Source: Desulfovibrio fairfieldensis (GTDB taxonomy: Bacteria > Desulfobacterota > Desulfovibrionia > Desulfovibrionales > Desulfovibrionaceae). Taken from it: a stretch of DNA of 64,000 nt. Position numbers and translations under genes: made by a program. The notes under the pieces are model-generated. The model did not search any database, was not told the DNA's origin, and saw nothing but the letters and a program-made list of their open reading frames with translations. Where the stretch lies: contig NZ_CP014229.1 in assembly GCF_001553605.1 (NCBI RefSeq), forward strand, positions 2,508,501 through 2,572,500. Reading direction: 5' to 3'. This document shows positions 24,067 to 38,818 of this stretch, piece after piece. The first letter of the stretch is position 1; every line of letters begins with the position of its first letter.

Positions 24067-25212
24067 ATGAAAAAAGCTCTGATCACCGGCATCACCGGCC
24101 AGGACGGCTCCTATCTGGCTGAATTTCTTCTGAACAAAGGGTACGAGGTACATGGTATCAAACGACGTGCCTCGCTGTTTAATACCGACCGCATCGATCA
24201 TCTGTATCAAGGCCCCCATCAGCAAGGCCGTAAGTTCATGCTGCATTACGGTGACCTTTCCGACGCCGGTAACCTGATCAGCATCATGCAGGAAGTGCAG
24301 CCCGACGAGGTCTATAATCTGGCGGCCCAGAGTCATGTGCAGGTGTCCTTTGAATCCCCCGAATACACGGCCAATGTGGATGCCCTGGGTACTCTGCGCC
24401 TGCTGGAAGCCATCCGGATGCTGGGCTTAACAAAAAAGACCCGCTTCTATCAGGCCTCCACTTCGGAGCTTTTCGGCAAGGTGCAGGAGATACCCCAGAC
24501 GGAAAAGACCCCTTTCTATCCGCGTTCACCCTACGCCTGTGCGAAGCTCTATTCTTACTGGATCACGGTCAACTACCGCGAAGCCTACGGCATGTACGCC
24601 TGCAACGGCATTCTTTTCAATCATGAATCCCCCGTGCGTGGCGAAACTTTTGTAACCCGCAAGATCACCCGTGCCTTGGCCCGTATCCTGCTGGGTCTTG
24701 CGTCCTGTCTGTATCTGGGCAACATGAATGCCAAACGCGACTGGGGCCATGCCCGCGATTATGTGGAAATGCAGTGGATCATGCTGCAACAGGAGCAGCC
24801 TGATGATTTTGTTATCGCCACAGGCCGCCAGTTTTCGGTGCGGGATTTTGTCAATGCTGCGGCCGCGGAGCTAGGCCTGACGTTGGAATGGAAGGGGACA
24901 GGCGTAGATGAGATCGCCACTGTAGCGGCCATTGATGCGACCAAGGCAGCCCAGGCCGCCAGAGGTAAGAATCTGCGCATCCAAGTCAATGAGGGCGACA
25001 TCATCGTGCGTGTAGATCCGCGCTATTTCCGACCCACTGAAGTGGAAACACTGCTGGGCGATCCTGTCAAAGCCCAAACAAAACTGGGATGGAAGCCACA
25101 CATCTCTTTTGAGGAAATGGTTGAAGAAATGGCCCGCCATGACCTTGAGTTGGCTCTGCGTGACGCTGTGGTGGAGGGCGCCGGCTTCACCAGTTTCAAG
25201 CACGAAGAATAA
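24067..25212 (+). CDS. gmd: GDP-mannose 4,6-dehydratase
   Basis: The 381-residue SDR makes GDP-4-keto-6-deoxy-D-mannose. It shows the NADP-binding [15 protein letters not shown] (residues 8-22), the catalytic [10 protein letters not shown] with Tyr and Lys (about residues 157-166), [14 protein letters not shown] with the active-site Thr/Glu region, and [19 protein letters not shown]. Length is typical. Its product is the shared precursor for GDP-L-fucose (next gene) and GDP-perosamine (31691). Its GC content resembles the chromosome, unlike genes further into the cluster. Confidence 0.97.
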
Positions 25213-25285
25213 GACCTGTCTGGCCTGTTTTTGATTCATGGGGCGGGATGACGCAATATCACCGTCCCATCATATGAGAGAACCT

Positions 25286-26221
25286 ATGTTGCTAAAAGAT
25301 GGGAAATTCTTTGTGGCTGGTCATCGCGGTCTTGTGGGCAGCGCCATTTGTCGTGCCTTACGTCGCGCGGGCTATGAGAATCTGCTGCTCCGCAGCCACG
25401 CAGAACTGGATCTGACCGAACAGCAGGCTGTACGTGATTTTTTAGCCAGCGAGAGGCCCGATTATGTGGTACTGGCGGCGGCCAGGGTGGGCGGTATCCA
25501 TGCCAATGCCACCTATCCGGCCAAGTTCATATACGAAAACCTGCAGATCCAGAACAACGTCATTCACAGCGCATGGCAGAACGGCGTGAAAAAATTTCTC
25601 TTTCTGGGATCTTCCTGTATCTATCCAAAGCTGTGCCCACAGCCCATCAAAGAGGAATATCTCTTGACAGGCCCCCTTGAACCCACCAACGATGCCTACG
25701 CGCTGGCCAAAATTGCAGGTATCAGAATGTGTCAGGCATACCGCAGACAATACGGTTTTGACGCCATCTGCGCCATGCCCACCAATCTCTACGGCACGGG
25801 CGACAATTATCATCCGGGAAACAGCCATGTGATCCCGGCCATGATCCGCCGTTTTCATGAAGCCAAAACGGCTGGTGCCCTGCAGGTGCGCATCTGGGGC
25901 ACAGGCACCCCGTTACGTGAATTTTTGCATGCTGACGATATGGCTGAGGCCTGTGTCTTTCTGCTGAATAACTATTCCGACTTCGAGCACATCAACGTGG
26001 GCAGTCAGCAGGAAATGACCATCATGGACGTTGCCCGCCTTGTAGCCCGCGTGGTCGGTTATGAAGGCGAGATTCTTACGGACCCCAGTCGTCCCGACGG
26101 AACTCCACGCAAACTCATGGATTCCGGCAAATTATTCGACATGGGCTGGAAACCTAAATTTAGTCTGGAAGACGGGCTGCGCGACGCATATGCGGATTTT
26201 CAAAACTCTCTACCCGGATAG
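25286..26221 (+). CDS. fcl: GDP-L-fucose synthase
   Basis: The 311-residue bifunctional epimerase/reductase converts the Gmd product to GDP-L-fucose. N-terminal [16 protein letters not shown] is the NADP site, [20 protein letters not shown] is a family landmark, and [15 protein letters not shown] holds the catalytic Tyr/Lys. [24 protein letters not shown] sequence follows. I favour the ATG at 25286 (GAGAG upstream) over 25274 or 25238. Eight nt separate it from wzm. Confidence 0.96.
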
Positions 26222-26229
26222 CTCTTTTC

Positions 26230-27051
26230 ATGTCGCAAGAACTGATTATTGAAGCCGGGCGTACGGAACGCCAGTATTGGAAAGATTTATGGCGTTACCG
26301 GGAGCTTTTTCTCATTCTGACTTGGCGCGATGTGGCCGTACAGTACAAGCAGACCGTGGTAGGTATTCTCTGGGCCGTGCTGCGCCCTTTGCTGACCATG
26401 GCGGCCTTTACCTTTGTGTTCGGCAAGGTGGCCAAACTTCCTTCGGAAGGCGTTGCGCCGTATCCGCTGATGGTTTTTGTCGCCATGTTGCCATGGCAGT
26501 TTTTTGCCACCGCCATCGCTGCTTCCGCCAATAGCCTGATCACCAATAGCAATCTGGTGTCCAAAGTGTATTTTCCCAGGATTATCGTCCCAACAGCGAC
26601 CATTGGCGTGGCGGTGGTGGATTTCGCCATTTCATTTGTGTTGTTGGGCGGCATGATGGTCTGGTACCAGTATCTACCGCCAATGCAAGTACTGGCGGTC
26701 ATTCCGCTGACTCTACTGGCGGCTGTGGTGGCGTTGGGGCCGGGACTTATCCTCTGCTCTCTGAATGTGACCTACCGGGATTTCCGTATCATCGTGCCTT
26801 TCATTACCCAGTTCGGTCTGTACATTTCACCGGTGGGCTTTTCCTCAAGCATCGTACCGGAAAAATGGAAACTACTGTACGAGTGTAATCCTATGGTCGG
26901 CGTTATCGACAGTTTTCGCTGGGCCGTACTGGGCACCATTGAATTTCCTGAGCGAGCGTTTTGTATCAGTCTGCTTTGCGCCTGCCTGCTTATGTTGTTG
27001 GGCATAAAGGTTTTTCGCAGAACGGAACGCACCTTTGCGGATGTGATTTAG
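26230..27051 (+). CDS. wzm: O-antigen/polysaccharide ABC exporter permease
   Basis: The 273-residue ABC-2 type permease has six hydrophobic segments. It carries the family entry region YRELFLILTWRDVAVQYKQT (about residues 22-41), then VVGILWAVLRPLLTMAAFTF. The segment NVTYRDFRIIVPFITQFGLY precedes the last helices. It pairs with the ATPase encoded 10 nt downstream to export undecaprenyl-linked polysaccharide across the inner membrane. A polymer made this way is finished in the cytoplasm. Confidence 0.93.
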   Translation: MSQELIIEAGRTERQYWKDLWRYRELFLILTWRDVAVQYKQTVVGILWAVLRPLLTMAAFTFVFGKVAKLPSEGVAPYPLMVFVAMLPWQFFATAIAASANSLITNSNLVSKVYFPRIIVPTATIGVAVVDFAISFVLLGGMMVWYQYLPPMQVLAVIPLTLLAAVVALGPGLILCSLNVTYRDFRIIVPFITQFGLYISPVGFSSSIVPEKWKLLYECNPMVGVIDSFRWAVLGTIEFPERAFCISLLCACLLMLLGIKVFRRTERTFADVI

Positions 27052-27061
27052 AGGCTTGCAT

Positions 27062-28324
27062 ATGAAACCAATCATTTCCGTTGAAGGACTCGGCAAGAGT
27101 TATACCATCCGCCATGAGGGGCAAACGCATTATAAATCTCTGCGAGAGGAAATATTCAAATTGCCCTCGCGCCTATTGCGACGCGGCGGACAGAGCCGGG
27201 AAGAATTCTGGGCGCTAAAGGATGTGAGCTTCGACATTATGCCCGGCGACCGCGTGGGCATCATCGGTCGCAATGGCGCGGGCAAGTCCACACTGCTCAA
27301 ATTGCTCTCGCGCATTACCGAGCCCACCACCGGGCGTATTACCTTACGCGGCCGCGTGGCCAGTCTATTGGAAGTAGGCACAGGTTTTCATCCGGAGCTG
27401 ACGGGCCGTGAGAATATATATCTAAACGGCGCCATTCTTGGCATGACTCGCTCCGAAGTGCGGCGCAAATTTGATGAAATTGTGGATTTCGCTGGAGTGG
27501 AGAAATTTCTGGATACTCCGGTCAAGCGCTACTCCTCCGGCATGTATGTGCGCCTTGCCTTCGCCGTGGCCGCCCACCTTGAACCGGAAATTCTCATCGT
27601 GGACGAGGTGCTGGCTGTGGGGGATGCGGCGTTTCAAAAAAAATGCCTTGGTAAGATGGAGGCAGTGAGTAAGGAAGGGAGGACAGTACTGTTCGTAAGC
27701 CATAATATGGCGGCGGTACAACAGTTATGCCAAAAAGGTATTTTGCTAGAAAATGCCAGATTAAAGGTTAATAGTAGCGTTGAGATGGCTATTGATATGT
27801 ATCAAAATTGCCATGGATGCGGTAGAAATCTATCGCAAAATTCTGAAACTACTACCAGGGACTTGATTGATAGACGGCCATTTGGGTGTGTCCATAAAAT
27901 TATTTCGAAAATAAGGTTAATGACACTGGAATCAGAACTAAAAAATATTTTTACTATGCTTTCTGGGGTAAAACTAGAAATATTTCTCAATGATATTGAT
28001 ATATATCCTGATATTGATTTCGGAATTTCTATTTTTAATGAGTCTGGCGTCCGGCTTGTGACATATACTACATGGATGATGGGCGTGAAACTTGATAAAA
28101 AAGCAAAAAAACTTGTCCTCATTATTCCTGAAATGATTTTTCCACCTGGAGAATATACTATTAATATCTGTGCGGCACGAAAACTAGCGGGTGAATATAT
28201 AGATAGAATTGAACCCGCAATTAAATTTTATATAGTTGATTCTGACATATTCCATACTGGCTATGGATATTCCCGAGGCGAAGGAATTACTTATCAGAAA
28301 GGCATATTGGAGTTTTCTATATGA
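27062..28324 (+). CDS. wzt: O-antigen/polysaccharide ABC exporter ATPase with C-terminal carbohydrate-binding domain
   Basis: The 420-residue protein has two parts. Residues 1 to about 220 are the ATPase: Walker A GRNGAGKSTLL, the signature-region RYSSGMYVRLAFAVA, Walker B ILIVDEVLAVGD and the H-loop FVSHNMAA. Residues from about 225 on form a beta-rich Wzt C-terminal domain (SGVKLEIFLNDIDIY onward), which in E. coli O8/O9a recognises the finished O-antigen end. Base composition changes sharply between the parts: 41 of 60 bases are G/C at 27241-27300, against 15 of 60 at 27961-28020. The ATG at 27062 overlaps nothing; the stop overlaps the next start by 4 nt. Confidence 0.92.
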   Translation: MKPIISVEGLGKSYTIRHEGQTHYKSLREEIFKLPSRLLRRGGQSREEFWALKDVSFDIMPGDRVGIIGRNGAGKSTLLKLLSRITEPTTGRITLRGRVASLLEVGTGFHPELTGRENIYLNGAILGMTRSEVRRKFDEIVDFAGVEKFLDTPVKRYSSGMYVRLAFAVAAHLEPEILIVDEVLAVGDAAFQKKCLGKMEAVSKEGRTVLFVSHNMAAVQQLCQKGILLENARLKVNSSVEMAIDMYQNCHGCGRNLSQNSETTTRDLIDRRPFGCVHKIISKIRLMTLESELKNIFTMLSGVKLEIFLNDIDIYPDIDFGISIFNESGVRLVTYTTWMMGVKLDKKAKKLVLIIPEMIFPPGEYTINICAARKLAGEYIDRIEPAIKFYIVDSDIFHTGYGYSRGEGITYQKGILEFSI

Positions 28325-29043
28325 AAGTGAAAAAATGCATTAAATGTATTATAAAAAACTCTTTTATATGCAAAAAAATTGCAAATATATGCAATGAATA
28401 TTCATATGGATCGATATGTTATGGACAAAATGCCGAAGATATGATTGCTGAAAAATTTTTTGATACCAATTATAAAGGATTTTATGTAGATATTGGGGCT
28501 CATCATCCACAACGCTTTTCTAATACTTATAGTTTTTATCAAAAGGGTTGGCGTGGCATTAATATTGATCCTCTCCCCGGAAGTATGACCCATTTTGAAA
28601 AAGAGCGGAACGAAGATATTAATTTGGAAATTTGTGTCTCAGCAGATTCAGGCATTGTAAAATATTATTTGTTCGACGAACCTGCGTATAATACAATCTC
28701 AGAAGAACGAGCGGAAAAGGTTTTATCTTTAAATGTAACAAGACTTAAAAATATAATAGATATTCAATCTAAGCCATTGGCTGACTTGCTTGACCGATAT
28801 GTTCCTAAGGGAAAATCAATAGATTTAATGTCTATTGATGTTGAGAGTATGGAACTACCTGTTTTGATGACAAATAATTGGGAGAAGTTTTTGCCTAAGC
28901 TTATAATTATTGAATCATTAATATCAACATACGGAGATATATATATGGTTAAAAATGATCCAGCAATTCGTTTTCTAGTTGGTATTGGGTATGAGATTGT
29001 TGGCAAAGTGCTAAATGTGGTATATTTAAAGTATAAAAAATAA
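28321..29043 (+). CDS. FkbM-family SAM-dependent methyltransferase
   Basis: The 240-residue protein has the FkbM family core: FYVDIGAHHPQRFSNTY, the SAM-binding glycine region (about residues 55-71), followed by INIDPLPGSM and the acidic MSIDVESMELPVL. FkbM-type enzymes O-methylate sugars or other hydroxyls. It is very AT-rich and overlaps wzt by ATGA. In ABC-exported O-antigens, methylation of the non-reducing end often stops chain growth and marks the chain for Wzt; that role is an inference here. Confidence 0.88.
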   Translation: MKVKKCIKCIIKNSFICKKIANICNEYSYGSICYGQNAEDMIAEKFFDTNYKGFYVDIGAHHPQRFSNTYSFYQKGWRGINIDPLPGSMTHFEKERNEDINLEICVSADSGIVKYYLFDEPAYNTISEERAEKVLSLNVTRLKNIIDIQSKPLADLLDRYVPKGKSIDLMSIDVESMELPVLMTNNWEKFLPKLIIIESLISTYGDIYMVKNDPAIRFLVGIGYEIVGKVLNVVYLKYKK

Positions 29044-29239
29044 GAATGTTCTATTGTCATTTTGCTTTCAATTGATCAAGTTTTTATATTGTCTTTTGCG
29101 TTTGTTGCAAAACAAGTGAGTTACCAAGGATGTTCCGAATTTTATGGTGATAGACTCCACTGTGCTGGGATAAAAACTAGGATGAATATGATTCATAGAC
29201 GGCCTGTCCACATTTGAAAATTAACAACTGGAGACTAAA

Positions 29240-30460
29240 ATGAAGGTAATAGTATGTGGAGGAGATGGCTTTTGCGGTTGGCCGACTTCTTTACACCTTT
29301 CAGCTTGCGGGCATGAGATTACAATTATTGATAATCTTTCTCGGCGAAAAATAGATATTGATCTTGAAGTTCAATCACTCACTCCAATACATTTTATCGG
29401 AGAGCGAATTCGAGCTTGGCACGAAATCAGCGGAAATATTATTCGTTTTGTTCAACTGGATTTAGCATCGAATTATGCAAAATTTTTGAATTTAATAAAT
29501 GAAATTAAGCCAGATGTCATTGTTCACTTTGCTGAACAGCGGTCAGCTCCATATTCAATGAAATCAACTTTTACAAAAAAATATACTGTAGATAATAATA
29601 TTAGAGCCACACATAATATTTTGGCTTCAATTGTAGAGTCAGGATTAGATGTTCATTTGGTTCATCTTGGTACTATGGGGGTATATGGGTATACTTCAAA
29701 GGGAATGACAATACCAGAAGGGTACTTGTCAGTGACCATTGATGCAGACAATGGTAAAAAAATAGAAAAAGAGATACTGTATCCTCCAAGTGCTGGAAGC
29801 ATTTATCATATGACAAAAACATTAGATCAATTATTATTTGCTTACTATAATAACAACGATAAGTTGAGGATAACGGACTTGCATCAAGGAATTGTTTGGG
29901 GTACAGAAATTGAAGAATCATCCAGAGATGAAAGACTCATAAATAGGTTTGATTATGATGGCGATTATGGCACTGTTTTAAACCGTTTTTTAATGCAGGC
30001 GGCTTTAAAGTATCCTTTAACTGTACACGGTACGGGAGGACAAACAAGAGGTTTTATTCATATTCGTGATACGGTTAAATGTTTGGAACTCTCTATAGAA
30101 AATCCTCCAATTAAGGGAGAACGTGTCTGCATACGGAATCAGGTCACAGAAACACATAGGATTAGGGACTTGGCTAAATTGGTATCTAAATTGACAGGAG
30201 CAGAGACTATTAGCATACCCGACCCACGTAACGAAGACATAGAAAATGATTTGGATGTAGATCATAGATGCTTTCTCGAATTGGGGCTCCAGCCTACTAC
30301 CTTGGCAGAAGGTTTGCTTTCGGAAATTTATAATATTTCTCAGAAGTATGCAGATCGCTGCGATAAAAAAAAGATCCCTTGTGTTTCCTACTGGGATAGA
30401 GAACGTGCAGAGGAATGCAAAAAATTTTATGAAGCCAATGAATTGATCAGCAGGGTATAA
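29240..30460 (+). CDS. sqdB: UDP-sulfoquinovose synthase-like SDR (SqdB/SQD1/Agl3 family)
   Basis: The 406-residue protein aligns with SQD1-type enzymes, which build UDP-6-sulfo-glucose from UDP-glucose and sulfite. Diagnostic segments are GGDGFCGWPTSLHLS (NAD site), SLTPI, HFAEQRSAPYSM (residues 96-107), LGTMGVYG with the catalytic Thr145, SIYHMTK with Tyr189 and Lys193, DLHQGIVWG, and LTVHGTGGQTRGFIHIRDTV. These residues are those used by plant SQD1 (T145, Y and K of YxxxK, and the adjacent H). General epimerases lack the EQRSAPYSM and GGQTRG motifs. It is AT-rich and sits between wzt/fkbM and a glycosyltransferase. A close relative with a different nucleotide-sugar product remains possible. 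Confidence 0.82.
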   Translation: MKVIVCGGDGFCGWPTSLHLSACGHEITIIDNLSRRKIDIDLEVQSLTPIHFIGERIRAWHEISGNIIRFVQLDLASNYAKFLNLINEIKPDVIVHFAEQRSAPYSMKSTFTKKYTVDNNIRATHNILASIVESGLDVHLVHLGTMGVYGYTSKGMTIPEGYLSVTIDADNGKKIEKEILYPPSAGSIYHMTKTLDQLLFAYYNNNDKLRITDLHQGIVWGTEIEESSRDERLINRFDYDGDYGTVLNRFLMQAALKYPLTVHGTGGQTRGFIHIRDTVKCLELSIENPPIKGERVCIRNQVTETHRIRDLAKLVSKLTGAETISIPDPRNEDIENDLDVDHRCFLELGLQPTTLAEGLLSEIYNISQKYADRCDKKKIPCVSYWDRERAEECKKFYEANELISRV

Positions 30461-30463
30461 ATT

Positions 30464-31384
30464 ATGCCAGCTCCAATTGCCATTTTTGCATTTAACAGGC
30501 CTGACTTGTTGCAACAAACCATAGCAGCACTTATGGCAAACCCCCTTTCCGAGAAAAGTAATGTTACCATATTTTGCGATGGGCCACGTGACGAAGCCGA
30601 AGCGTTGTTGACAGGCCAAGTGCGCAGTATTGCGAAATCTGTAAAAGGATTTGCTACATTAGACGTTGTAACGAGAGACGAGAATCTTGGTGGCTTCCGG
30701 GCAATTCCTGATGGCATGCGTCAGATGTTTAATCTTTATGATAGCCTTATTGTTTTAGAAGATGATATCCTTTTATCTCCATTTGCTTTAGAATATTTTA
30801 ATAACGCTTTGAATAAGTATGAGGACAAAAGAAGCGTTTTCACTATTTCAGCCTGGAGTCCATCTGCAAATTTTATTCGCGCACCAAGGGATTACCCTTT
30901 TGAGGTTTGTTTTTTCCCCAACTTTGGAGGTTGGGGTTGGGCCATATGGAAAGATAGATTCGATTTGATTGACTGGAGCTTTCCTGAAAAAGAAGATATA
31001 GAAAACTACCCAGTATTATTAAACAATATGGCATGCATTCAACCTAATTTAGTTAAATTAATGTTACACCAGAAGCATAAAATAAATTGGGATGTTTGTG
31101 TAGATTTTTATCGTTTTAAAAATGGACTATTGTCACTTTTCCCACTAAAGTCTTTAGCTGTTAATATTGGATTATTCTCTGGCCAACATCCAGTGAATTC
31201 TATTCCTCAATACATGGATATACAGTTGACTAGTGATCATGCTCCAGATTTGATTGACTACGTTTTTTGTGATCCACGTCTAATGAGGAAATTTCTTTTA
31301 GCATTTTCAGGAGATCGGAGCTTCGCTTTTTTTTCTCGGATGATTAACTGGTGCAAGTGCATTTTTAGTCAGAAATTTATATAA
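30464..31384 (+). CDS. GT-A fold glycosyltransferase
   Basis: The 306-residue protein starts PAPIAIFAFNRPDLLQQTIA, the NRP motif of a glycosyltransferase family often annotated as family 2. It has the metal-binding acidic motif in VLEDDILLSPFALEYFN (about residues 96-112) and the acceptor-side GGWGWAIWKDRF. There is no membrane segment. It lies 3 nt after the sulfoquinovose synthase gene and is equally AT-rich; the pair was probably acquired together, which makes it the best candidate for transferring the sulfo-sugar. Confidence 0.85.
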   Translation: MPAPIAIFAFNRPDLLQQTIAALMANPLSEKSNVTIFCDGPRDEAEALLTGQVRSIAKSVKGFATLDVVTRDENLGGFRAIPDGMRQMFNLYDSLIVLEDDILLSPFALEYFNNALNKYEDKRSVFTISAWSPSANFIRAPRDYPFEVCFFPNFGGWGWAIWKDRFDLIDWSFPEKEDIENYPVLLNNMACIQPNLVKLMLHQKHKINWDVCVDFYRFKNGLLSLFPLKSLAVNIGLFSGQHPVNSIPQYMDIQLTSDHAPDLIDYVFCDPRLMRKFLLAFSGDRSFAFFSRMINWCKCIFSQKFI

Positions 31385-31690
31385 AGAACAGCATTGGATT
31401 GAAATTTTGCAATTTTGATATAGCAGAATAGGATCGGCGCTGGAACCTAATCGTAGCTTTCGCCATGAGCTGCAGACACCGCGCGTCATTCTTTTCAGCG
31501 GCTGAGAAGAAGAAGAAGAAGAAGAAGAAGAAGAAGAAGAAGAAGAAGAAGAAGAAGAACGGAAATGATAGCAGTGCCTTGCTCATGAACTAGCAGAACT
31601 GATAGAAATCAATATATCAGATTTGCATCAAGAGTTACTTTGGCACTATAGGGTGTTGTGAAGAACAGCGTTTGAGCCTTGGGGGATTTT
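31385..31690. other. intergenic segment with microsatellite, possible decayed gene end
   Basis: About 300 nt between two cluster genes. One plus-strand frame reads through NLIVAFAMSCRHRASFFSA into a poly-lysine run made by the trinucleotide tract and then stops. It has no proper start and contains an upstream stop, so I treat it as a relic or non-coding. The composition is nearer the chromosome than the AT-rich genes to its left, marking a mosaic boundary. Confidence 0.5.
31506..31559 (+). repeat. (GAA)18 trinucleotide microsatellite
   Basis: Eighteen uninterrupted GAA units (54 nt), preceded by GCTGA and followed by CGGAAATG. It lies 132 nt before the GTG start of the aminotransferase gene at 31691. 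Perfect tracts of this length are prone to slipped-strand length change. In an intergenic position that could alter promoter spacing rather than a reading frame. Confidence 0.95.
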
Positions 31691-32812
31691 GTGACTAAGT
31701 TCCTTCCTGTTTGCGAACCGCTACTGCAGGGCAATGAGCTTGCCTACGTTACAGAAGCAATATCCACCAGCTGGATTTCTTCTTCAGGTAAATACGTCTC
31801 CGCTTTTGAAGAAGCTTTTGCTGCTTACTGCGGAACAAGACACGCTATTGCCGTCTGCAACGGCACAGTGGCTCTCCATTTGGCCCTGCGGGCACTGGGC
31901 GTCGGCCCGGGGGATGAAGTTATCATTCCGGACTTTACCATGATTGCCTCGGCATTGGCGATCTGCTACTGCGGTGCCAAGCCCGTCTTTGTGGATGCCG
32001 ACGCGATTACCTGGAATATAGATACTGCTGCAATAGAGCAGAAAATCAATCCGGCCACAAAGGGTATCATGGCCGTGCATATTTTCGGCAACCCTTGTGA
32101 CATGGCTGCCTTACAGCACATTGCTGACCGTTACGGACTCTGGCTGATGGAAGACGCTGCGGAGGCTCATGGCGCGCTTTTCCAAGGGCGTGGAGTGGGC
32201 AACCTGTCCCGCATTGCAGGTTTCAGCTTTTTTGCCAACAAAAATATTACCACCGGCGAAGGTGGTATGGTAGTCACAAATGACGACAACTTGGCTCACG
32301 CCTGCCGCTATTTCAAGAACATGTGTTTTCCGCTGGATGCGCCACGCTCATATCTGCACGCGGATATCGGCTACAACTACCGTATGAGTAATCTTCATGC
32401 GGCCATAGGCTTGGCTCAGACCGAACGCGCCGATGTTTACAAAGCTCTGCGTCAGTCGCATGGGCGTCTTTACCGCCAGCGCCTTTCCGCCATCCCCGGA
32501 ATATTGCTGCAGCAGGACACGCCTTGCGGCGAATCCGTCAACTGGATGAATGGCTTGGCGCTCACGCCTGAATACGGCCGCAGTAGAGGCGAAGTCATTG
32601 CCCATTTGAGGGAAAACAATATTGATAGTCGGCTATTTTTTAATGGTATGCATCGCCAACCTGCACTGAAGAACTATGGTTGCGCATGTGACGACAGCTA
32701 TCCTGTTTCTGACATGCTGGCCGACAACGGTTTCTATCTGCCCAGCGGCAGTGGCCTGCAGGAAGCGGATATCGAATATGTCTGCTCTGTACTAGCAGAA
32801 TTCCGTCGTTAA
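31691..32812 (+). CDS. DegT/DnrJ/EryC1 aminotransferase, probable GDP-perosamine synthase
   Basis: The 373-residue PLP enzyme has the features of sugar aminotransferases. These are CNGTVALHLALRALGVGPGD near residue 60, VEDAAEAHGA-like sequence (MEDAAEAHGALFQG) for the PLP-ring Asp, the Schiff-base lysine in FSFFANKNITTGEGGM (about residue 182), and GYNYRMSNLHAAIG. FFANK with TTGEGG is typical of Per/RfbE, which aminates GDP-4-keto-6-deoxymannose, the Gmd product in this cluster. I choose GTG at 31691 because GGGGGA lies 5 nt upstream. Substrate assignment is from context and motif; other 4-keto sugar aminotransferases look similar. Confidence 0.82.
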   Translation: MTKFLPVCEPLLQGNELAYVTEAISTSWISSSGKYVSAFEEAFAAYCGTRHAIAVCNGTVALHLALRALGVGPGDEVIIPDFTMIASALAICYCGAKPVFVDADAITWNIDTAAIEQKINPATKGIMAVHIFGNPCDMAALQHIADRYGLWLMEDAAEAHGALFQGRGVGNLSRIAGFSFFANKNITTGEGGMVVTNDDNLAHACRYFKNMCFPLDAPRSYLHADIGYNYRMSNLHAAIGLAQTERADVYKALRQSHGRLYRQRLSAIPGILLQQDTPCGESVNWMNGLALTPEYGRSRGEVIAHLRENNIDSRLFFNGMHRQPALKNYGCACDDSYPVSDMLADNGFYLPSGSGLQEADIEYVCSVLAEFRR

Positions 32813-32843: not shown

Positions 32844-33765
32844 ATGATACGAAGCACTAAGGAAGTATGTAAGCTTTTTATTCCTCCTATAATCCTTTTA
32901 GTGTATAAAAAAATAAAATCGTATTCTAATAATAAATCAAAAGAAGATAGGACTTATACTATTCACGGGAAAGACTTACTTATTCCATGGGATCATCGAC
33001 TTGACCACTACCAATTAATATATCATAAATATGACACTTTTCTTCCACATCTTGCAAAATATATAAACGAAGGTTTTATTATTGACATTGGTGCAAATGT
33101 TGGTGATACATTGTATGGAATGATCCAAGACAATAATACTAAATTTATATGCATTGAACCAGAGCCTCGTTTTTTTTCGTTTCTGCAAAAAAATATTCAA
33201 CGATTAGGGAAAAGGCTGGAAGCAAATGTCGTTGCATTTAATGTTGCAATAAGTTCTAAAAAAGAAAAACTTTCATTTAGTGCACAACATGTGCACTGCC
33301 AGCCAAATCGATTCTGTTCAAGGTGCCATTCCTGCAAAGTCTCTTGATGATATGGCGGAAGAGATACCTCAGCTACCTGAACAATGCCGTCTTATCAAAA
33401 TTGATACCGACGGGTTTGATTATGATTGTATACTCTCTGGGAAAAAATTTTTTTCTAAAACTTCAGCACTTGTTTTTTGGGAAAATGATTTTGTAAATGA
33501 AGATTCTCTAAAAAATTATTCTGAAGCAGTTAACCTCCTCATCAAATGTGGTTATAAAAAATTTTATATATTCGACAACTATGGTAATTTTATGGTTTCA
33601 ACCCTAGGAAGCGACATTATATACTTTTTAAGCTATTATCAAGAATCATTAACGATAATGAAACACAGCAATATTCCCTATTATGATATTTTAGCCTGTC
33701 AAGAAAATGACATACCGTTTATCGACAATGTTATTAATAAATATAATTTTATACAAAAAAGATAA
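32844..33765 (+). pseudogene. frameshifted FkbM-family methyltransferase
   Basis: Two overlapping frames make one FkbM-type protein. The first (32844-33347) carries the SAM site FIIDIGANVGDTLYGM and FICIEPEPRFFSFLQ, then runs into nonsense after LSFSAQH. The second (open from about 33280, ending 33765) continues with TASQIDSVQGAIPAKSLDDM and LIKIDTDGFDYDCI, the expected C-terminal half. The frame change (+1) falls at about 33279-33300, where GTGCAC occurs twice, 5 nt apart. Either the gene is broken, or this is a sequencing error or programmed shift. It is AT-rich like the first FkbM gene. Confidence 0.75.
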
Positions 33766-33774
33766 GCACCAATA

Positions 33775-34551
33775 ATGAAACCTTTCAACGAATATTCATA
33801 TTATTATAACGTCCTCTATCAGAACAAGGATTATGCTGGCGAAACGTCTTTCATTCTAGACTGCCTTCAACAACAGGGATGCTGGCCCGCAACGCTTCTG
33901 GATCTGGGTTGTGGCACTGGGCGGCATGCCTTGGAAATGGCGCATCGGGGCCTCACAGTTACCGGTATAGACATGTCCACCACCATGTTGGGAATGGGGC
34001 GATCTCTGTACGCCAGTATGATCCCCCCGCACAACGGGAAACCTCTTCCCCGGCTGCTTGAAGGTGATGCCCGCAACGTACGGTTACATGAGACCTTCGA
34101 TGCAGTTACCAGCCTATTCCATGTCATGAGCTATCAGAATTCGGAAGAAGACGCTCTCGCCGAATTGGAGACAGCCAAGAATCATTTAAAAACAGGAGGG
34201 GTTTTTCTTTTTGATTTCTGGTACGGCCCAGGAGTTTTGACCGATCCCCCCACAGAGCGTGATCGTCAGATGGAAGATGAGCAGACACTCGTGCAACGAC
34301 ATGCTCATCCTGTACACAGGTTCAACGATAACATCGTCGAGGTACACTACAGCATAGACCTCACAGACAAGAGCAGCGGCAAGTGCTCTCATTTGACTGA
34401 AATGCACAGTATGCGCTACTGGTTCCTTCCCGAATTACGCTACTTGGCTTTCCAAAGCGGCTTCACTGTTGCAGCAGAAGGGGCATGGCTTTCCTTTGAT
34501 GCTCCTACTTGCAATACCTGGAACGCCTGGATGGCATTGAAAAAATGTTAA
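33775..34551 (+). CDS. class I SAM-dependent methyltransferase
   Basis: The 258-residue protein has the canonical motif I LLDLGCGTGRHALEMAHRG (about residues 41-59), motif II-like VTGIDMSTTMLGMGR and the post-motif FDAVTSLFHVMSYQNSEEDA. It is of the Methyltransf_11/25 type, which methylates sugars or small molecules. No membrane segment. Composition is close to the chromosome. It overlaps the next glycosyltransferase by 7 nt. It could be a capping or decorating enzyme for the polysaccharide. Confidence 0.88.
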   Translation: MKPFNEYSYYYNVLYQNKDYAGETSFILDCLQQQGCWPATLLDLGCGTGRHALEMAHRGLTVTGIDMSTTMLGMGRSLYASMIPPHNGKPLPRLLEGDARNVRLHETFDAVTSLFHVMSYQNSEEDALAELETAKNHLKTGGVFLFDFWYGPGVLTDPPTERDRQMEDEQTLVQRHAHPVHRFNDNIVEVHYSIDLTDKSSGKCSHLTEMHSMRYWFLPELRYLAFQSGFTVAAEGAWLSFDAPTCNTWNAWMALKKC

Positions 34552-35711
34552 AGCGGATAGCTATCTATACCACGATTTCTCCCGAAGGGGGAGGGAGCTT
34601 TCAGTATGGGGCATCGATCCTCTCCGCGCTCAGCCAACTGGATGCCAGGAACTATCAATCCCGATTCTGGTGCCGTGATCCTGCATGGCTCCCCATCGCC
34701 GCACAATTTCATATTCCCGGGACGCTGTTCCCCGCTCACTCCCCCCTGCTACAGCGAATCGTTTTGCGTGGAGTTCGAGAGCTGAGAAAAGTATGTGATT
34801 TGCCTGCCCAACAGTTTACTCCTTTCTTTCTTCCTATCCAGCGATGGCATCCTCATATATGTGTATGCCTTAATCAAGCTTTCACTCCGCTTGTTAATTG
34901 TAAGATAATCGGTCCTATCCATGATCTAATGCATCGTTACGAAGCACGCTTCCCTGAAGTGGGAGAGGAAAGCGTATACTGCAGCAGAGAAAAGCTCTTC
35001 GCCAGCCATTGTGCCAATGCTGATGCCATTCTCGTTGACTCGCACATCGGTAAAGAACAGGTACTGGAGATATATCATCCTGATCCCCAAAAAATATTTG
35101 TCCTCCCTTTCGTGCCTTCGCCTCTGGCAGAACATGCTGAGAAGCCCTCACATTTTCCCCTCACCGACGACACTCCCTTCCTTTTTTACCCGGCACAGAT
35201 GTGGCTGCATAAAAATCATGCAAACCTGCTGAGAGCCGTGCACAGCCTGCTTCCCGAGCTTGATATTCACTGCATCTTTACCGGCACAAAAGATAAAAAT
35301 GGGGCTGCATTATATGATCGCCTTGTAGATGACCTGGATCTTGCGCAACGAGTTCACCATCTCGGCTATGTCAGCGACAATGAAATGCGATGGTTGTATG
35401 AAAATGCCCGATGCATGATTATGCCCACCTTCTTTGGTCCGACAAACATACCTCCGCTTGAAGCTATGCTGGCGGGTTGTCCTGTCGGCGTATCCAATAT
35501 CTATGCCATGCGTGAACGCTATGGAGACGCAGCCCTTTACTTTGACCCCAAAAGCGCTCCAGATATGGCCAACACTATACGAAAACTCTGGACAGACGAT
35601 GCCCTGTGCCTGAAATTGAGAAAACTTGGAGAAAAGCATATAGCAGCTTGGGGACAAATAGATTTTGAAAAACGCTTTATACATATTTTGCATCAGATAG
35701 AGGAGTCATAA
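34545..35711 (+). CDS. glycosyltransferase family 4
   Basis: A 388-residue GT-B enzyme. The N-terminal half begins RIAIYTTISPEGGGSFQYGA. The C-terminal nucleotide-sugar domain has PAQMWLHKNHANLLRAVHSL and TGTKDKNGAALYDRLV. The donor motif is PTFFGPTNIPPLEAMLAGCP (about residues 290-309), in which the usual first acidic residue of E-x7-E is not obvious but the second Glu is present. ATG at 34545 overlaps the preceding stop. Sugar specificity unknown. Confidence 0.88.
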   Translation: MLKRIAIYTTISPEGGGSFQYGASILSALSQLDARNYQSRFWCRDPAWLPIAAQFHIPGTLFPAHSPLLQRIVLRGVRELRKVCDLPAQQFTPFFLPIQRWHPHICVCLNQAFTPLVNCKIIGPIHDLMHRYEARFPEVGEESVYCSREKLFASHCANADAILVDSHIGKEQVLEIYHPDPQKIFVLPFVPSPLAEHAEKPSHFPLTDDTPFLFYPAQMWLHKNHANLLRAVHSLLPELDIHCIFTGTKDKNGAALYDRLVDDLDLAQRVHHLGYVSDNEMRWLYENARCMIMPTFFGPTNIPPLEAMLAGCPVGVSNIYAMRERYGDAALYFDPKSAPDMANTIRKLWTDDALCLKLRKLGEKHIAAWGQIDFEKRFIHILHQIEES

Positions 35712-36568
35712 TGGCTCCTTTCTTCACCATCATCACATCCACCTATAATGCCGCGTCTACCCTGCCCAGATTGCTAGATTCCTTGACGCTCCAGACTTGC
35801 AAGGACTTTAACTGGATTGTGCAGGACGGCGCCTCTACAGATGACACCATGCGCATAGTGGAGCGGTATCGTGACCGTCTACCGGAAATTTTGGCGGATA
35901 GCGGTAAGGACAGCGGCATCTACGATGCATGGAATACGGCCCTGAACCACTGGCGAGACAAGCTGGGGGAATGGGTGCTCTTCATGGGGGCGGACGATAT
36001 GCTTGCGGATAATCACGTACTGAACCAAGCTAAGAACTTACTCCAAGATTGTTCTGAAAAAATTATCTTCGGAGCAGGAGAGCTGATTCTTTTTGACCCT
36101 GATCTTGGTTTTGTAGAACACTCTCCCCAACAATATTCCGCAATAAACTTTGAGCGACGTTTCTTTGGAATGCCGTTTCAGCATCCAGCTCTTTTCAACA
36201 AAAAGAGCATATTCAAGCAAAGTAATTTTGATATCAGCTTCAAAATAGCTGGTGATTACGATTTCATTTTGCGTACATGGAAATCTCCAGAACAAGTATA
36301 TCCGCTCAATATCACAGTTACTAAAATGGCGATTGGCGGAATATCCAGCTCATCGCAAACTAAAAAAAAGTGTCAGTCAGAAAAATGCAGAGCAATCAAA
36401 AAAAATCTTCCATTTGACTGGAAACACGGCCTTCGATATGTTGTTATCCTTGTGGACGTCTATTTTTTCAACATCAAAATGGAATTAAAAAATAAATTCT
36501 ATTTGTCTGAAGGCGGTAAGGCTCTTTGGGGGAAATTGCAAAAATTTCGGCGTTACATCATAAAATAA
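35711..36568 (+). CDS. glycosyltransferase family 2
   Basis: A 285-residue GT-A enzyme: TIITSTYNAASTLPRLLDSL at the N-terminus, IVQDGASTDDT for nucleotide binding, DSGIYDAWNTALNHW and the DxD-like GADDML (about residue 96). This arrangement resembles colanic-acid type enzymes (WcaA/WcaE). It shares one base with the previous stop. The last 80 residues are AT-rich and Lys-rich. Confidence 0.88.
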   Translation: MAPFFTIITSTYNAASTLPRLLDSLTLQTCKDFNWIVQDGASTDDTMRIVERYRDRLPEILADSGKDSGIYDAWNTALNHWRDKLGEWVLFMGADDMLADNHVLNQAKNLLQDCSEKIIFGAGELILFDPDLGFVEHSPQQYSAINFERRFFGMPFQHPALFNKKSIFKQSNFDISFKIAGDYDFILRTWKSPEQVYPLNITVTKMAIGGISSSSQTKKKCQSEKCRAIKKNLPFDWKHGLRYVVILVDVYFFNIKMELKNKFYLSEGGKALWGKLQKFRRYIIK

Positions 36569-36594
36569 CTAAAAAATTTATCCTTATTTATATT

Positions 36595-37557
36595 ATGAAG
36601 CAGCAAGATTCCCGCCCAGACATTTCTGTCATTGTCCCCGTATATAATACAGAACGTTATATCAGGCAGTGCCTCTCCAGCATTTGTAATCAATCATTAA
36701 AGAATATTGAAATAATTTGTATCAATGATGGTTCACCGGATGCTTCTGAAGCCATCATCCGCGAGATGCGCTTGTATGACAAGCGCATCATCCTGATCAA
36801 TAAAAAGAACGGAGGGCCGTCCGAAGCTCGCAAAACCGGAGTAGCACAAGCGGCAGGAAAATATATCGGCTTTATTGATAGTGATGACTATATAGAAAAA
36901 TATTTTTTTGAATATTTGTATATGGCAGCCTGTGCAGAAGACGCTGACATTGCGGTTACAACTTCTATGGTCGCTTTTTCAGAAGATGGTAAAACCTATC
37001 TCAAAAAATCTTGTTTTCATGAAAAGAAACGACAGCTCACAAATAAAGACCGTTGTTCTCTCTTTCTGCACATGGGAAGTGCTTGCAACAAAATATATAA
37101 AAATGAATTTATAAAAAAATCTATCAAATACTATATACCCACAACTACCCCGGCAGAAGATAATTCTTTTACAATATTCTCGCTTATTACAGCTAGCAAG
37201 GTTACCCTAACAACAGAGGCAAAATATTTTTATCGACAGCGTAAAGCATCCGTGTCCCGTGCGCCCGTTTCTTTGGAAACATGCAACCAAGTATATCTCC
37301 TTTACGGGAAAATTCTTGCTCAACTGCAGGACCTTGCTCCCCAAGATGAGCAGCTATACGCGGCTTTCATCCGCCGGCGCAGAGACTGGGATTGCTTCCA
37401 GCTGGCAGAGCGACTTTCCACATGCCATGAGCGCATGTGTTTTCTGAAACAGACTAGGGATCCACGTTTTCATGTTATGTACTTGGCAAGAAAAATCCGT
37501 AACCTGTTAAAAAAAGCATACAGCACGTCCGTCAAATACCTCCGCAACTACGAGTAA
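36595..37557 (+). CDS. glycosyltransferase family 2
   Basis: A 320-residue GT-A enzyme of the common type: ISVIVPVYNTERYIRQCLSS, IICINDGSPDASEAI, and the catalytic metal site FIDSDDYIEKYFFEYL (about residues 91-106). I start it at 36595 (MKQQDSRPD), since the longer frame overlaps the previous gene. There is no good Shine-Dalgarno, so coupling to the upstream gene is possible. Confidence 0.88.
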   Translation: MKQQDSRPDISVIVPVYNTERYIRQCLSSICNQSLKNIEIICINDGSPDASEAIIREMRLYDKRIILINKKNGGPSEARKTGVAQAAGKYIGFIDSDDYIEKYFFEYLYMAACAEDADIAVTTSMVAFSEDGKTYLKKSCFHEKKRQLTNKDRCSLFLHMGSACNKIYKNEFIKKSIKYYIPTTTPAEDNSFTIFSLITASKVTLTTEAKYFYRQRKASVSRAPVSLETCNQVYLLYGKILAQLQDLAPQDEQLYAAFIRRRRDWDCFQLAERLSTCHERMCFLKQTRDPRFHVMYLARKIRNLLKKAYSTSVKYLRNYE

Positions 37558-37561
37558 TACG

Positions 37562-38818
37562 ATGCACATTGCTCTTGATGTCCATGACATGAACCGCACT
37601 GGCGGCCTGGAAAAAGTCGTGATGGGCATTGCGACCGAAATGGCAAGGCGCGGCCATCAGGTAAGCTGCTTTACCTATGCCGCGCCGCTACGCTCCCCTA
37701 CTCCCCCTCCGTCGGACGGACTGCGCCTAGAGTATTACTCCTTCACCGGAGACGCGGCCATAGTTCGCCCCATGCGCGACAGGATCCTGCGCAGTAATCC
37801 GGATGTCTTCATTAGCCCATCGTCCTTCAACAACATTCTGTTCTGGAGTGCCGTACTGCGCAGCACGGGCATTCCTCTGCTCTATTCCGAACATAATAAT
37901 CCCTGGCGCATTGAGCAGGAACGCTGGAACCCGGAAGAGCGGAAGGCGGCGCTTTGGGCTGCGGATGCGGTACATCTGCTCATGCCCCAGTTTCTGGACT
38001 CAGTGCCCACGGCATTACGAAGCAAATGCCGCATCATCGCCAATCCTGTACCCGCGCCGCCAGCCATCCCTTCCCAAAAACATGCTCCCTGCATACTTTC
38101 CCTTGGCAGACTTGCTGCCGTAAAGCAAATCCCCATGTTGGTACGGGCGTTCGCGCTGCTTGCCGCGGAGTTTCCCCTCTGGGAACTGCATATCTGGGGG
38201 ATCGGCAGCGATGAAAAAAATATTCGCAAGGCCATTGCCGCGACAAGATGCGCCTCCCGAATATTCCTGCACGGCATAACGCGACAACCGGCGCAGCAAT
38301 TCGCCCAGGCGGATATTTTCTGCATTCCCTCCCGCTTTGAGGGCCTGCCGCTGACTGTTGTGGAAGCTTTTTCCCATGGTGTTCCGGTGGTGGGTTTCGC
38401 GGATTGCAGTGGCGTCAACGGCCTTGTCCGTCCAAACCAGAACGGGCTACTGGCGGTGGAAATGACAGATACAAGCTTGGCTGCCTGCCTCCGCCACCTG
38501 ATGGCGGACGCCAATGCGCGACAGTACATGGGGCAGGTCGCGCAAAAGGACGCTCAGCTTTTTTCTCCGGCAATTATTTATGATCAGTGGGAACGCTTGC
38601 TGTGCGAAACCGCCGCCAGTAAGGGGCAAACGCAGCTACAAAAAATGGATGTCTGTTCCCCCATGTCCTCATTGGATGAGGAGAGCTGGTGCAACACCAT
38701 GCGCAAGCTATGCGCCAGAAAGAATCTGCTTCTGCGTGATTCCCAATTGTTGCGTCGCATCATCTGGCGACACCCTCGCCTGAAGGCTTTGCTCAAACGG
38801 CTGCTGCAAAAAGCCTGA
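37562..38818 (+). CDS. glycosyltransferase family 4
   Basis: A 418-residue retaining GT-B enzyme. Acceptor half: IALDVHDMNRTGGLEKVVMG with the GG loop. Donor half: LSLGRLAAVKQIPMLVRAFA and the E-x7-E motif in PSRFEGLPLTVVEAFSHGVP (about residues 259-278). It resembles WabH/AmsD-type enzymes using UDP-hexosamine or UDP-hexose, but donor identity is not certain. It is the last plus-strand gene of the cluster and converges on the GT gene at 39038. Confidence 0.9.
   Translation: MHIALDVHDMNRTGGLEKVVMGIATEMARRGHQVSCFTYAAPLRSPTPPPSDGLRLEYYSFTGDAAIVRPMRDRILRSNPDVFISPSSFNNILFWSAVLRSTGIPLLYSEHNNPWRIEQERWNPEERKAALWAADAVHLLMPQFLDSVPTALRSKCRIIANPVPAPPAIPSQKHAPCILSLGRLAAVKQIPMLVRAFALLAAEFPLWELHIWGIGSDEKNIRKAIAATRCASRIFLHGITRQPAQQFAQADIFCIPSRFEGLPLTVVEAFSHGVPVVGFADCSGVNGLVRPNQNGLLAVEMTDTSLAACLRHLMADANARQYMGQVAQKDAQLFSPAIIYDQWERLLCETAASKGQTQLQKMDVCSPMSSLDEESWCNTMRKLCARKNLLLRDSQLLRRIIWRHPRLKALLKRLLQKA

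Follow-up and report, generated by a model that had tools for sequence, protein, structure and literature searches.

A probable SqdB-type UDP-sulfoquinovose synthase encoded in a Wzm/Wzt polysaccharide locus of the sulfate reducer Desulfovibrio fairfieldensis

The window, i.e., the whole stretch of 64,000 nucleotides of the Desulfovibrio fairfieldensis genome that was analysed, contains a gene cluster (Table 1) in which Wzm and Wzt components, the latter with a Wzt_C domain, are encoded among glycosyltransferase genes, identifying it as an ABC-dependent O-polysaccharide locus. The epimerase/reductase of the cluster is presumably a GDP-fucose synthase. Besides GDP-fucose, GDP-4-amino-4,6-dideoxymannose (perosamine type) could be made by the GDP-mannose dehydratase and the DegT aminotransferase. 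Two overlapping ORFs in different frames (32844–33347 and 33280–33765) correspond to the front and the back of one FkbM methyltransferase profile, so that this gene looks interrupted, or contains a sequencing error. In the congeneric genomes G473, G474 and G006, the loci with a homologue of the transferase at 30464 and a GDP-fucose synthase-like gene contain another ABC protein. Congeneric loci harboring a homologue of this transferase have part of the frame in common and differ in their inner genes, which fits a variable O-antigen locus. A sequence-only reading had assigned a UDP-sulfoquinovose synthase homologue to an ABC-type O-antigen cluster of a sulfate-reducing bacterium; this setting is borne out by the Wzm, Wzt and glycosyltransferase genes and by the presence of dsrA (643.5 bits) and aprA (1174 bits) in the genome, both scoring over the cut-off.

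Table 1. Genes of the polysaccharide locus, with positions in the window
Feature	Position	Strand	Basis or remark
GDP-mannose 4,6-dehydratase	24067..25212	+	PF16363, 515 bits; 92% identical in G473
GDP-fucose synthase-like epimerase/reductase	25238..26221	+	PF01370, 237.7 bits; 87–88% in G473, G474, G006
Wzm-like ABC-2 permease	26230..27051	+	PF01061; 85% identical in G451
Wzt-like ATPase, C-terminal Wzt_C	27056..28324	+	PF00005, PF14524; 91% over 230 aa in G451
FkbM-type methyltransferase, upstream of synthase	28321..29043	+	PF05050
Predicted SqdB-type UDP-sulfoquinovose synthase, 406 aa	29240..30460	+	Sequence, tree, model, residues
Glycosyltransferase, GNT-I-like (GT-A by nearest structures)	30464..31384	+	PF03071, 26.4 bits vs cut-off 25.4
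DegT/DnrJ aminotransferase	31679..32812	+	PF01041, 398 bits
Four glycosyltransferases (two Glycos_transf_1, two Glycos_transf_2)	34509..38818	+	Alternative candidates for use of UDP-sulfoquinovose

The synthase ORF is intact, starts with ATG and is preceded by GGAG. The motifs EQRSAPYSM (residues 99–107), GTMG (144–147), YHMTK (189–193) and GGQTRG as well as Thr145, Tyr189 and Lys193, on which the earlier assignment to the SQD1 family was based, are all present and correctly numbered, and the three residues are invariant across a 39-row alignment which includes seven plant SQD1-like rows. With T145-M146-G147 and Y189xxxK193, the protein matches the [ST]MG-xn-YxxxK signature described for UDP-sulfoquinovose synthases in an excerpt of PMC8987622. 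Its top match in the PDB is SQD1 of Arabidopsis (1qrr; E 5.5e-91, 308.7 bits), whereas the second-best family, UDP-glucuronate decarboxylase, reaches only 47 bits, indicating that the SQD1 match is not due to chance. The AlphaFold2 model (mean pLDDT 86.1) superimposes on 1qrr with TM scores of 0.88/0.91 at 2.2 Å, as compared to query-normalised TM scores of 0.55–0.67 for the other folds listed, such as UDP-glucose 4-epimerases. SQD1 thus is the nearest relative by sequence and by structure, far above ordinary epimerases, in agreement with the sequence-only reading. The plant enzyme (1qrr, 1i24) resembles the synthase in fold and in Thr145/Tyr182/Lys186, His183 and Arg101, but it is only 43% identical, belongs to a separate clade, and has Glu148 where the synthase has Val. 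Taken together, sequence and model make it very probable that the protein is a UDP-sulfoquinovose synthase of the SqdB type.

Such proteins are not rare in bacteria; at least 7,999 homologues were found at E ≤1e-40. The best other homologue among the matches listed is 75% identical, and for 16 of the 120 homologues listed, the JGI annotation reads UDP-sulfoquinovose synthase. A scan of genome contigs with the single synthase protein yielded eight loci, all distant (seven with 24–34% identity, and one 34-residue piece with 53%). A phage origin was dropped because 50,697 phage records gave no match to the synthase at E ≤1e-30. A promoter of its own in the gap before the synthase gene was also rejected, as 10 promoter-like hits in 28900–31700 compare with a shuffled mean of 10.0.

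The functional residues of the family have been probed in Agl3 of Sulfolobus acidocaldarius. According to an excerpt of that study (PMC4388408), replacement of His95, Arg101, Met145, Tyr182 or Lys186 by Ala abolishes activity, T144A is still active, E147A retains 12.4% (5,6-ene activity) and Y148A 15%. Compared from these published positions, all five essential residues are kept in the synthase as His96, Arg101, Met146, Tyr189 and Lys193, and so are the equivalents of Agl3 Tyr148, Ser180 and Thr185; the residues listed for the synthase comprise His96, Arg101, Thr145, Met146, Val148, Tyr149, Ser187, Tyr189, His190, Thr192 and Lys193. A Glu at the position of Agl3 Glu147 is absent, its place being taken by Val148. 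The same Val occurs in every one of the 30 SqdB-type sequences aligned for the tree, including four genes linked to family 8 glycosyltransferases (GT8) and two linked to phosphoadenylyl-sulfate (PAPS) reductase genes, and is therefore regarded as a trait of the type; since it is also found outside the type, in the Agrobacterium and Natrinema rows and in two look-alikes (L095, L096), it was not treated as a defining test for SqdB. Loss of function through the Glu-to-Val exchange was rejected because the GT8-linked relatives carry the same Val. Arg101 and Met are likewise present in 30 of 30 SqdB-type rows of this alignment. The type is nevertheless not uniform, as two SqdB-type relatives, G520 and G635, have Thr in place of the Met required for Agl3 activity.

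The NCBIfam model for UDP-sulfoquinovose synthase, NF041015, gave 326 bits for the synthase, 249 bits short of its cut-off of 575. Among 14 control genomes, 13 had a match to this model and one exceeded the cut-off; NF041015 is probably a narrow model built around Agl3, and if it is taken as such, the sub-cut-off score does not exclude the synthase from the family.

A survey of the order at E ≤1e-40 revealed 40 places in 39 of 348 genomes, which fall into two classes, namely 14 SqdB-type genes (E ≤1e-148) and 26 SQD1-like genes (E 1e-59 to 1e-85). Residues were compared for all 14 SqdB-type proteins of the order plus three from elsewhere in the phylum, and for 17 of the 26 SQD1-like proteins. 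Position 101 is Arg in 17 of 17 SqdB-type and Pro in 17 of 17 SQD1-like proteins so compared. Although the three SQD1-like proteins measured are more similar to SQD1 (46–53% identity) than those of the SqdB type (42–46%), Pro at position 101 makes them poor candidates for the same reaction. At 12 of 15 loci (L044–L047, L110–L120), the Pro-101 SQD1-like gene lies within about 1.1 kb of a gene for a FlaA1-like dehydratase, a name given by reading of the sequence and not by family search; at L046, one of the three loci without it, the contig starts 187 bases before the gene. A second NAD-epimerase adjoins the SQD1-like gene in 9 of the 15. The Pro-101 cassette is a conserved one, serving the formation of a nucleotide sugar that is probably not sulfoquinovose. 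The Arg101/Pro split provides a simple sequence rule by which likely synthases can be told apart from look-alikes, both of which may receive the same label in automatic annotation. A plasmid search with a look-alike protein as query retrieved 18 records, all of them within the 22 plasmid records matched by the synthase.

The phylogeny suggested as a check by the sequence-only reading placed the synthase in an SqdB-type clade. In this tree of 42 rows, the clade comprises 30 rows, among them the GT8-linked and the PAPS-reductase-linked genes, with a support of 92/95, which is under the star level. The plant SQD1s and the SQD1-like genes of the order fall into the other clade (99/97), together with the sequences from Pseudonocardia and Natrinema. 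The tree was rooted on outgroups with very long branches, and the branches of the Agrobacterium and Natrinema sequences are long as well. The GT8-linked group of the SqdB type (100/100) does not include the synthase. The closest SqdB-type gene in the order, that of G710, is 70% identical and looks isolated.

These data bear on the possibility that the protein is a diverged enzyme of the SQD1 fold which forms another nucleotide sugar without sulfite, acting as an epimerase or producing a UDP-glucose-5,6-ene. The NF041015 score below the cut-off and the Val at the Glu147 position would fit such a role, as would the look-alikes of the order, which also occur among sugar genes and, in the three measured, are nearer to SQD1 overall while having Pro for Arg101. 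Agl3 itself yields the 5,6-ene when sulfite is omitted, as stated in an excerpt of PMC4388408. However, all residues essential in Agl3, Arg101 among them, are retained by the synthase, and the SqdB type of synthase includes the GT8-linked and PAPS-reductase-linked members, so that we consider a product other than UDP-sulfoquinovose unlikely.

The neighbourhoods of the 14 SqdB-type genes of the order were inspected for roughly five genes to either side, as far as the contigs extended. Eleven of them, including that of the window, are located near glycan genes, and in nine of these cases (window, G025, G460, G621, G681, G670, G666, G635 and G481) a neighbouring glycosyltransferase was verified either through Pfam directly or through a BLAST match to a glycosyltransferase so verified. 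G025, G460 and G621 (L040, L072, L103) have a common cassette encoding GT2 enzymes, radical SAM proteins and a large protein with an FkbM domain; adjoining it in G025 are genes for a 2099-aa repeat protein and for an outer membrane efflux protein. Another cassette, coding for an asparagine-synthase-like protein, a glycosyltransferase, a GT4 enzyme and an epimerase, is common to G681, G670 and G666. The glycan cluster of G670 that holds the SqdB-type gene also contains an APS kinase gene (L105, 5267–5851). In G588, the SqdB-type gene is located by that of a Stealth protein, and in G510 a sugar epimerase is encoded three genes away, two nearer downstream genes having no Pfam match. The remaining three genes (G710, G463, G520) appear isolated, as judged from four neighbours tested and the rest by eye. 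Outside the order, the SqdB-type genes of G189 and G113 are situated in glycan clusters, and that of G075 looks alone by eye.

Matches to the synthase at E ≤1e-30 were found in 22 plasmid records, and the neighbourhoods of 10 of the 22 were inspected. The plasmid-borne SqdB-type proteins encoded next to GT8-like genes or near PAPS reductase genes are 59–64% identical to the synthase; relatives from Agrobacterium, Pseudonocardia and Natrinema plasmids (32–44%) lie outside the type. On plasmids of Marinovum, Loktanella, Sinorhizobium meliloti and Palleronia, the synthase gene is directly followed by a glycosyltransferase gene, annotated as glycogenin, family 8 or plain glycosyltransferase. The mutual identity of these four transferases (64–79%) indicates that all are of the family 8 kind; none resembles the transferase at 30464. 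A reductase or epimerase gene comes next in three of the four loci. SqdB, SqdC and SqdD of S. meliloti are assigned to sulfoquinovosyl diacylglycerol in an excerpt of PMC10315480, and from their layout we infer that the four GT8-linked loci are sqdBDC loci. On plasmids of Pelagovum pacificum and Rhodobacteraceae bacterium M382, a PAPS reductase gene is next to the synthase gene or one gene on, and glycosyltransferases are encoded near both. The reductases at L017 (8001–9907) and L025 (8001–11764), where the order is SqdB then PAPS reductase, are 74% identical to each other, and L025 has a sulfotransferase gene in between. PAPS reductase makes sulfite. On a Rhodococcus plasmid, the synthase gene is located near genes of a SulP sulfate transporter and a glycosyltransferase.

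The synthase could accordingly be thought to serve the formation of sulfoquinovosyl diacylglycerol, its place in a polysaccharide locus being incidental. Four of its relatives adjoin GT8-like genes, the S. meliloti proteins are listed for this lipid in the part of PMC10315480 considered, and the SqdB-type genes of G710, G463 and G520 look isolated. Against this, a search of the window's own genome with one S. meliloti SqdD-like (GT8) query returned no homologue (best E 0.32), the synthase gene belongs to a locus linked to an exporter and is separated by 3 nt from a glycosyltransferase gene, and glycan genes occur near 11 of the 14 SqdB-type genes of the order. A role in sulfolipid synthesis is thus improbable. 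The alphaproteobacterial SqdB proteins of S. meliloti, Loktanella, Palleronia and Marinovum correspond to the synthase in type, in identity (59–61%) and in their motifs, including GTMGVYG and Arg101, but differ in setting: the gene studied here is part of a Wzm/Wzt locus and lacks a GT8-like neighbour, and no match to the S. meliloti transferase was obtained in its genome.

The glycosyltransferase encoded downstream had been proposed as the natural partner of the synthase. Its gene starts 3 nt after the synthase stop codon, and its AT-rich character is as described (GC content 0.376, matching 0.369 for the synthase gene, as compared to 0.582 for the window); the model of the protein (pLDDT 89.2) has POMGNT1 and GNT-I as its nearest PDB structures. 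However, of 79 congeneric genomes, 55 of which are ≥90% complete and ≤5% contaminated, 17 have a homologue of the transferase (E ≤1e-15) and five have the synthase (E ≤1e-40), both being found together only in the window genome. Among the four remaining genomes with a synthase, two have a completeness of 77% and 67%, so that a miss of the transferase carries little weight there. Contig 124 of G473 (3,860 bases) carries an FkbM gene (48% identity) directly followed by a transferase homologue (42%), without a synthase gene between them; it looks as if the synthase gene had been gained between the FkbM and transferase genes in the window genome or lost in G473. In G189, a transferase also follows an SqdB-type gene, but its 24% identity to the window transferase is weak. 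Based on the congeneric distribution and on contig 124, the adjacent transferase as partner of the synthase was rejected as unsupported; that it is a dedicated sulfoquinovosyltransferase appears quite doubtful, and any transferase of the locus may use the sulfoquinovose donor.

On balance, we think it rather likely that the SqdB-type synthase supplies UDP-sulfoquinovose for the Wzm/Wzt-exported surface polysaccharide of the locus. In the proposed pathway, the enzyme would oxidise UDP-glucose at C4 with its bound NAD+, elimination of the C6 hydroxyl would give the 4-keto-5,6-ene, and addition of sulfite at C6 and reduction at C4 would then lead to UDP-6-sulfoquinovose. One transferase of the same locus would place sulfoquinovose in the glycan, and export by Wzm/Wzt would result in a sulfonated O-polysaccharide. 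Sulfate reduction forms sulfite in the cytoplasm, and the presence of dsrA and aprA indicates that this is also the case here; the sulfite would probably be withdrawn from sulfate respiration at the AprAB step. The SqdB–PAPS reductase pairs of Pelagovum pacificum and strain M382 are comparable in identity (64%) and in the glycosyltransferases nearby, but carry a local sulfite-making enzyme, whereas the synthase described here would draw on sulfate respiration.

A known enzyme thus appears to have found a new use. Agl3 provides a precedent for UDP-sulfoquinovose in a surface glycan, the S-layer N-glycan of S. acidocaldarius, as reported in an excerpt of PMC4388408, though the present host is bacterial and the export route is different. 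No report of a bacterial O-antigen, capsule or exopolysaccharide containing sulfoquinovose was found in the open-licence literature, covered mostly as titles and beginnings of abstracts, although this does not prove that there is none. GC/MS of alditol acetates would overlook a sulfonate. This is the method by which D. desulfuricans LPS was analysed, according to an excerpt of PMC3354558. A partial forerunner is the inclusion of SQD among the nucleotide-sugar enzymes in a prediction of cyanobacterial EPS (excerpt of PMC12555021).

We tentatively suggest, as a generalization that may well prove too broad, that sulfate reducers divert respiratory sulfite to UDP-sulfoquinovose and build variable surface glycans from it, that SqdB genes enter and leave glycan loci, in the present case between the genes for FkbM and the transferase, that Rhodobacteraceae act likewise by means of a dedicated PAPS reductase, and that sulfonated surface glycans of bacteria are widespread and unrecognised. 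Sulfoquinovose is one of the large organosulfur pools. If the proposed pathway is true, bacteria which have respiratory sulfite at hand would make this sugar in a context other than sulfolipids and archaeal N-glycans; a permanently charged sugar would be added to bacterial surface antigens, and anoxic habitats would have a source of sulfoquinovose.
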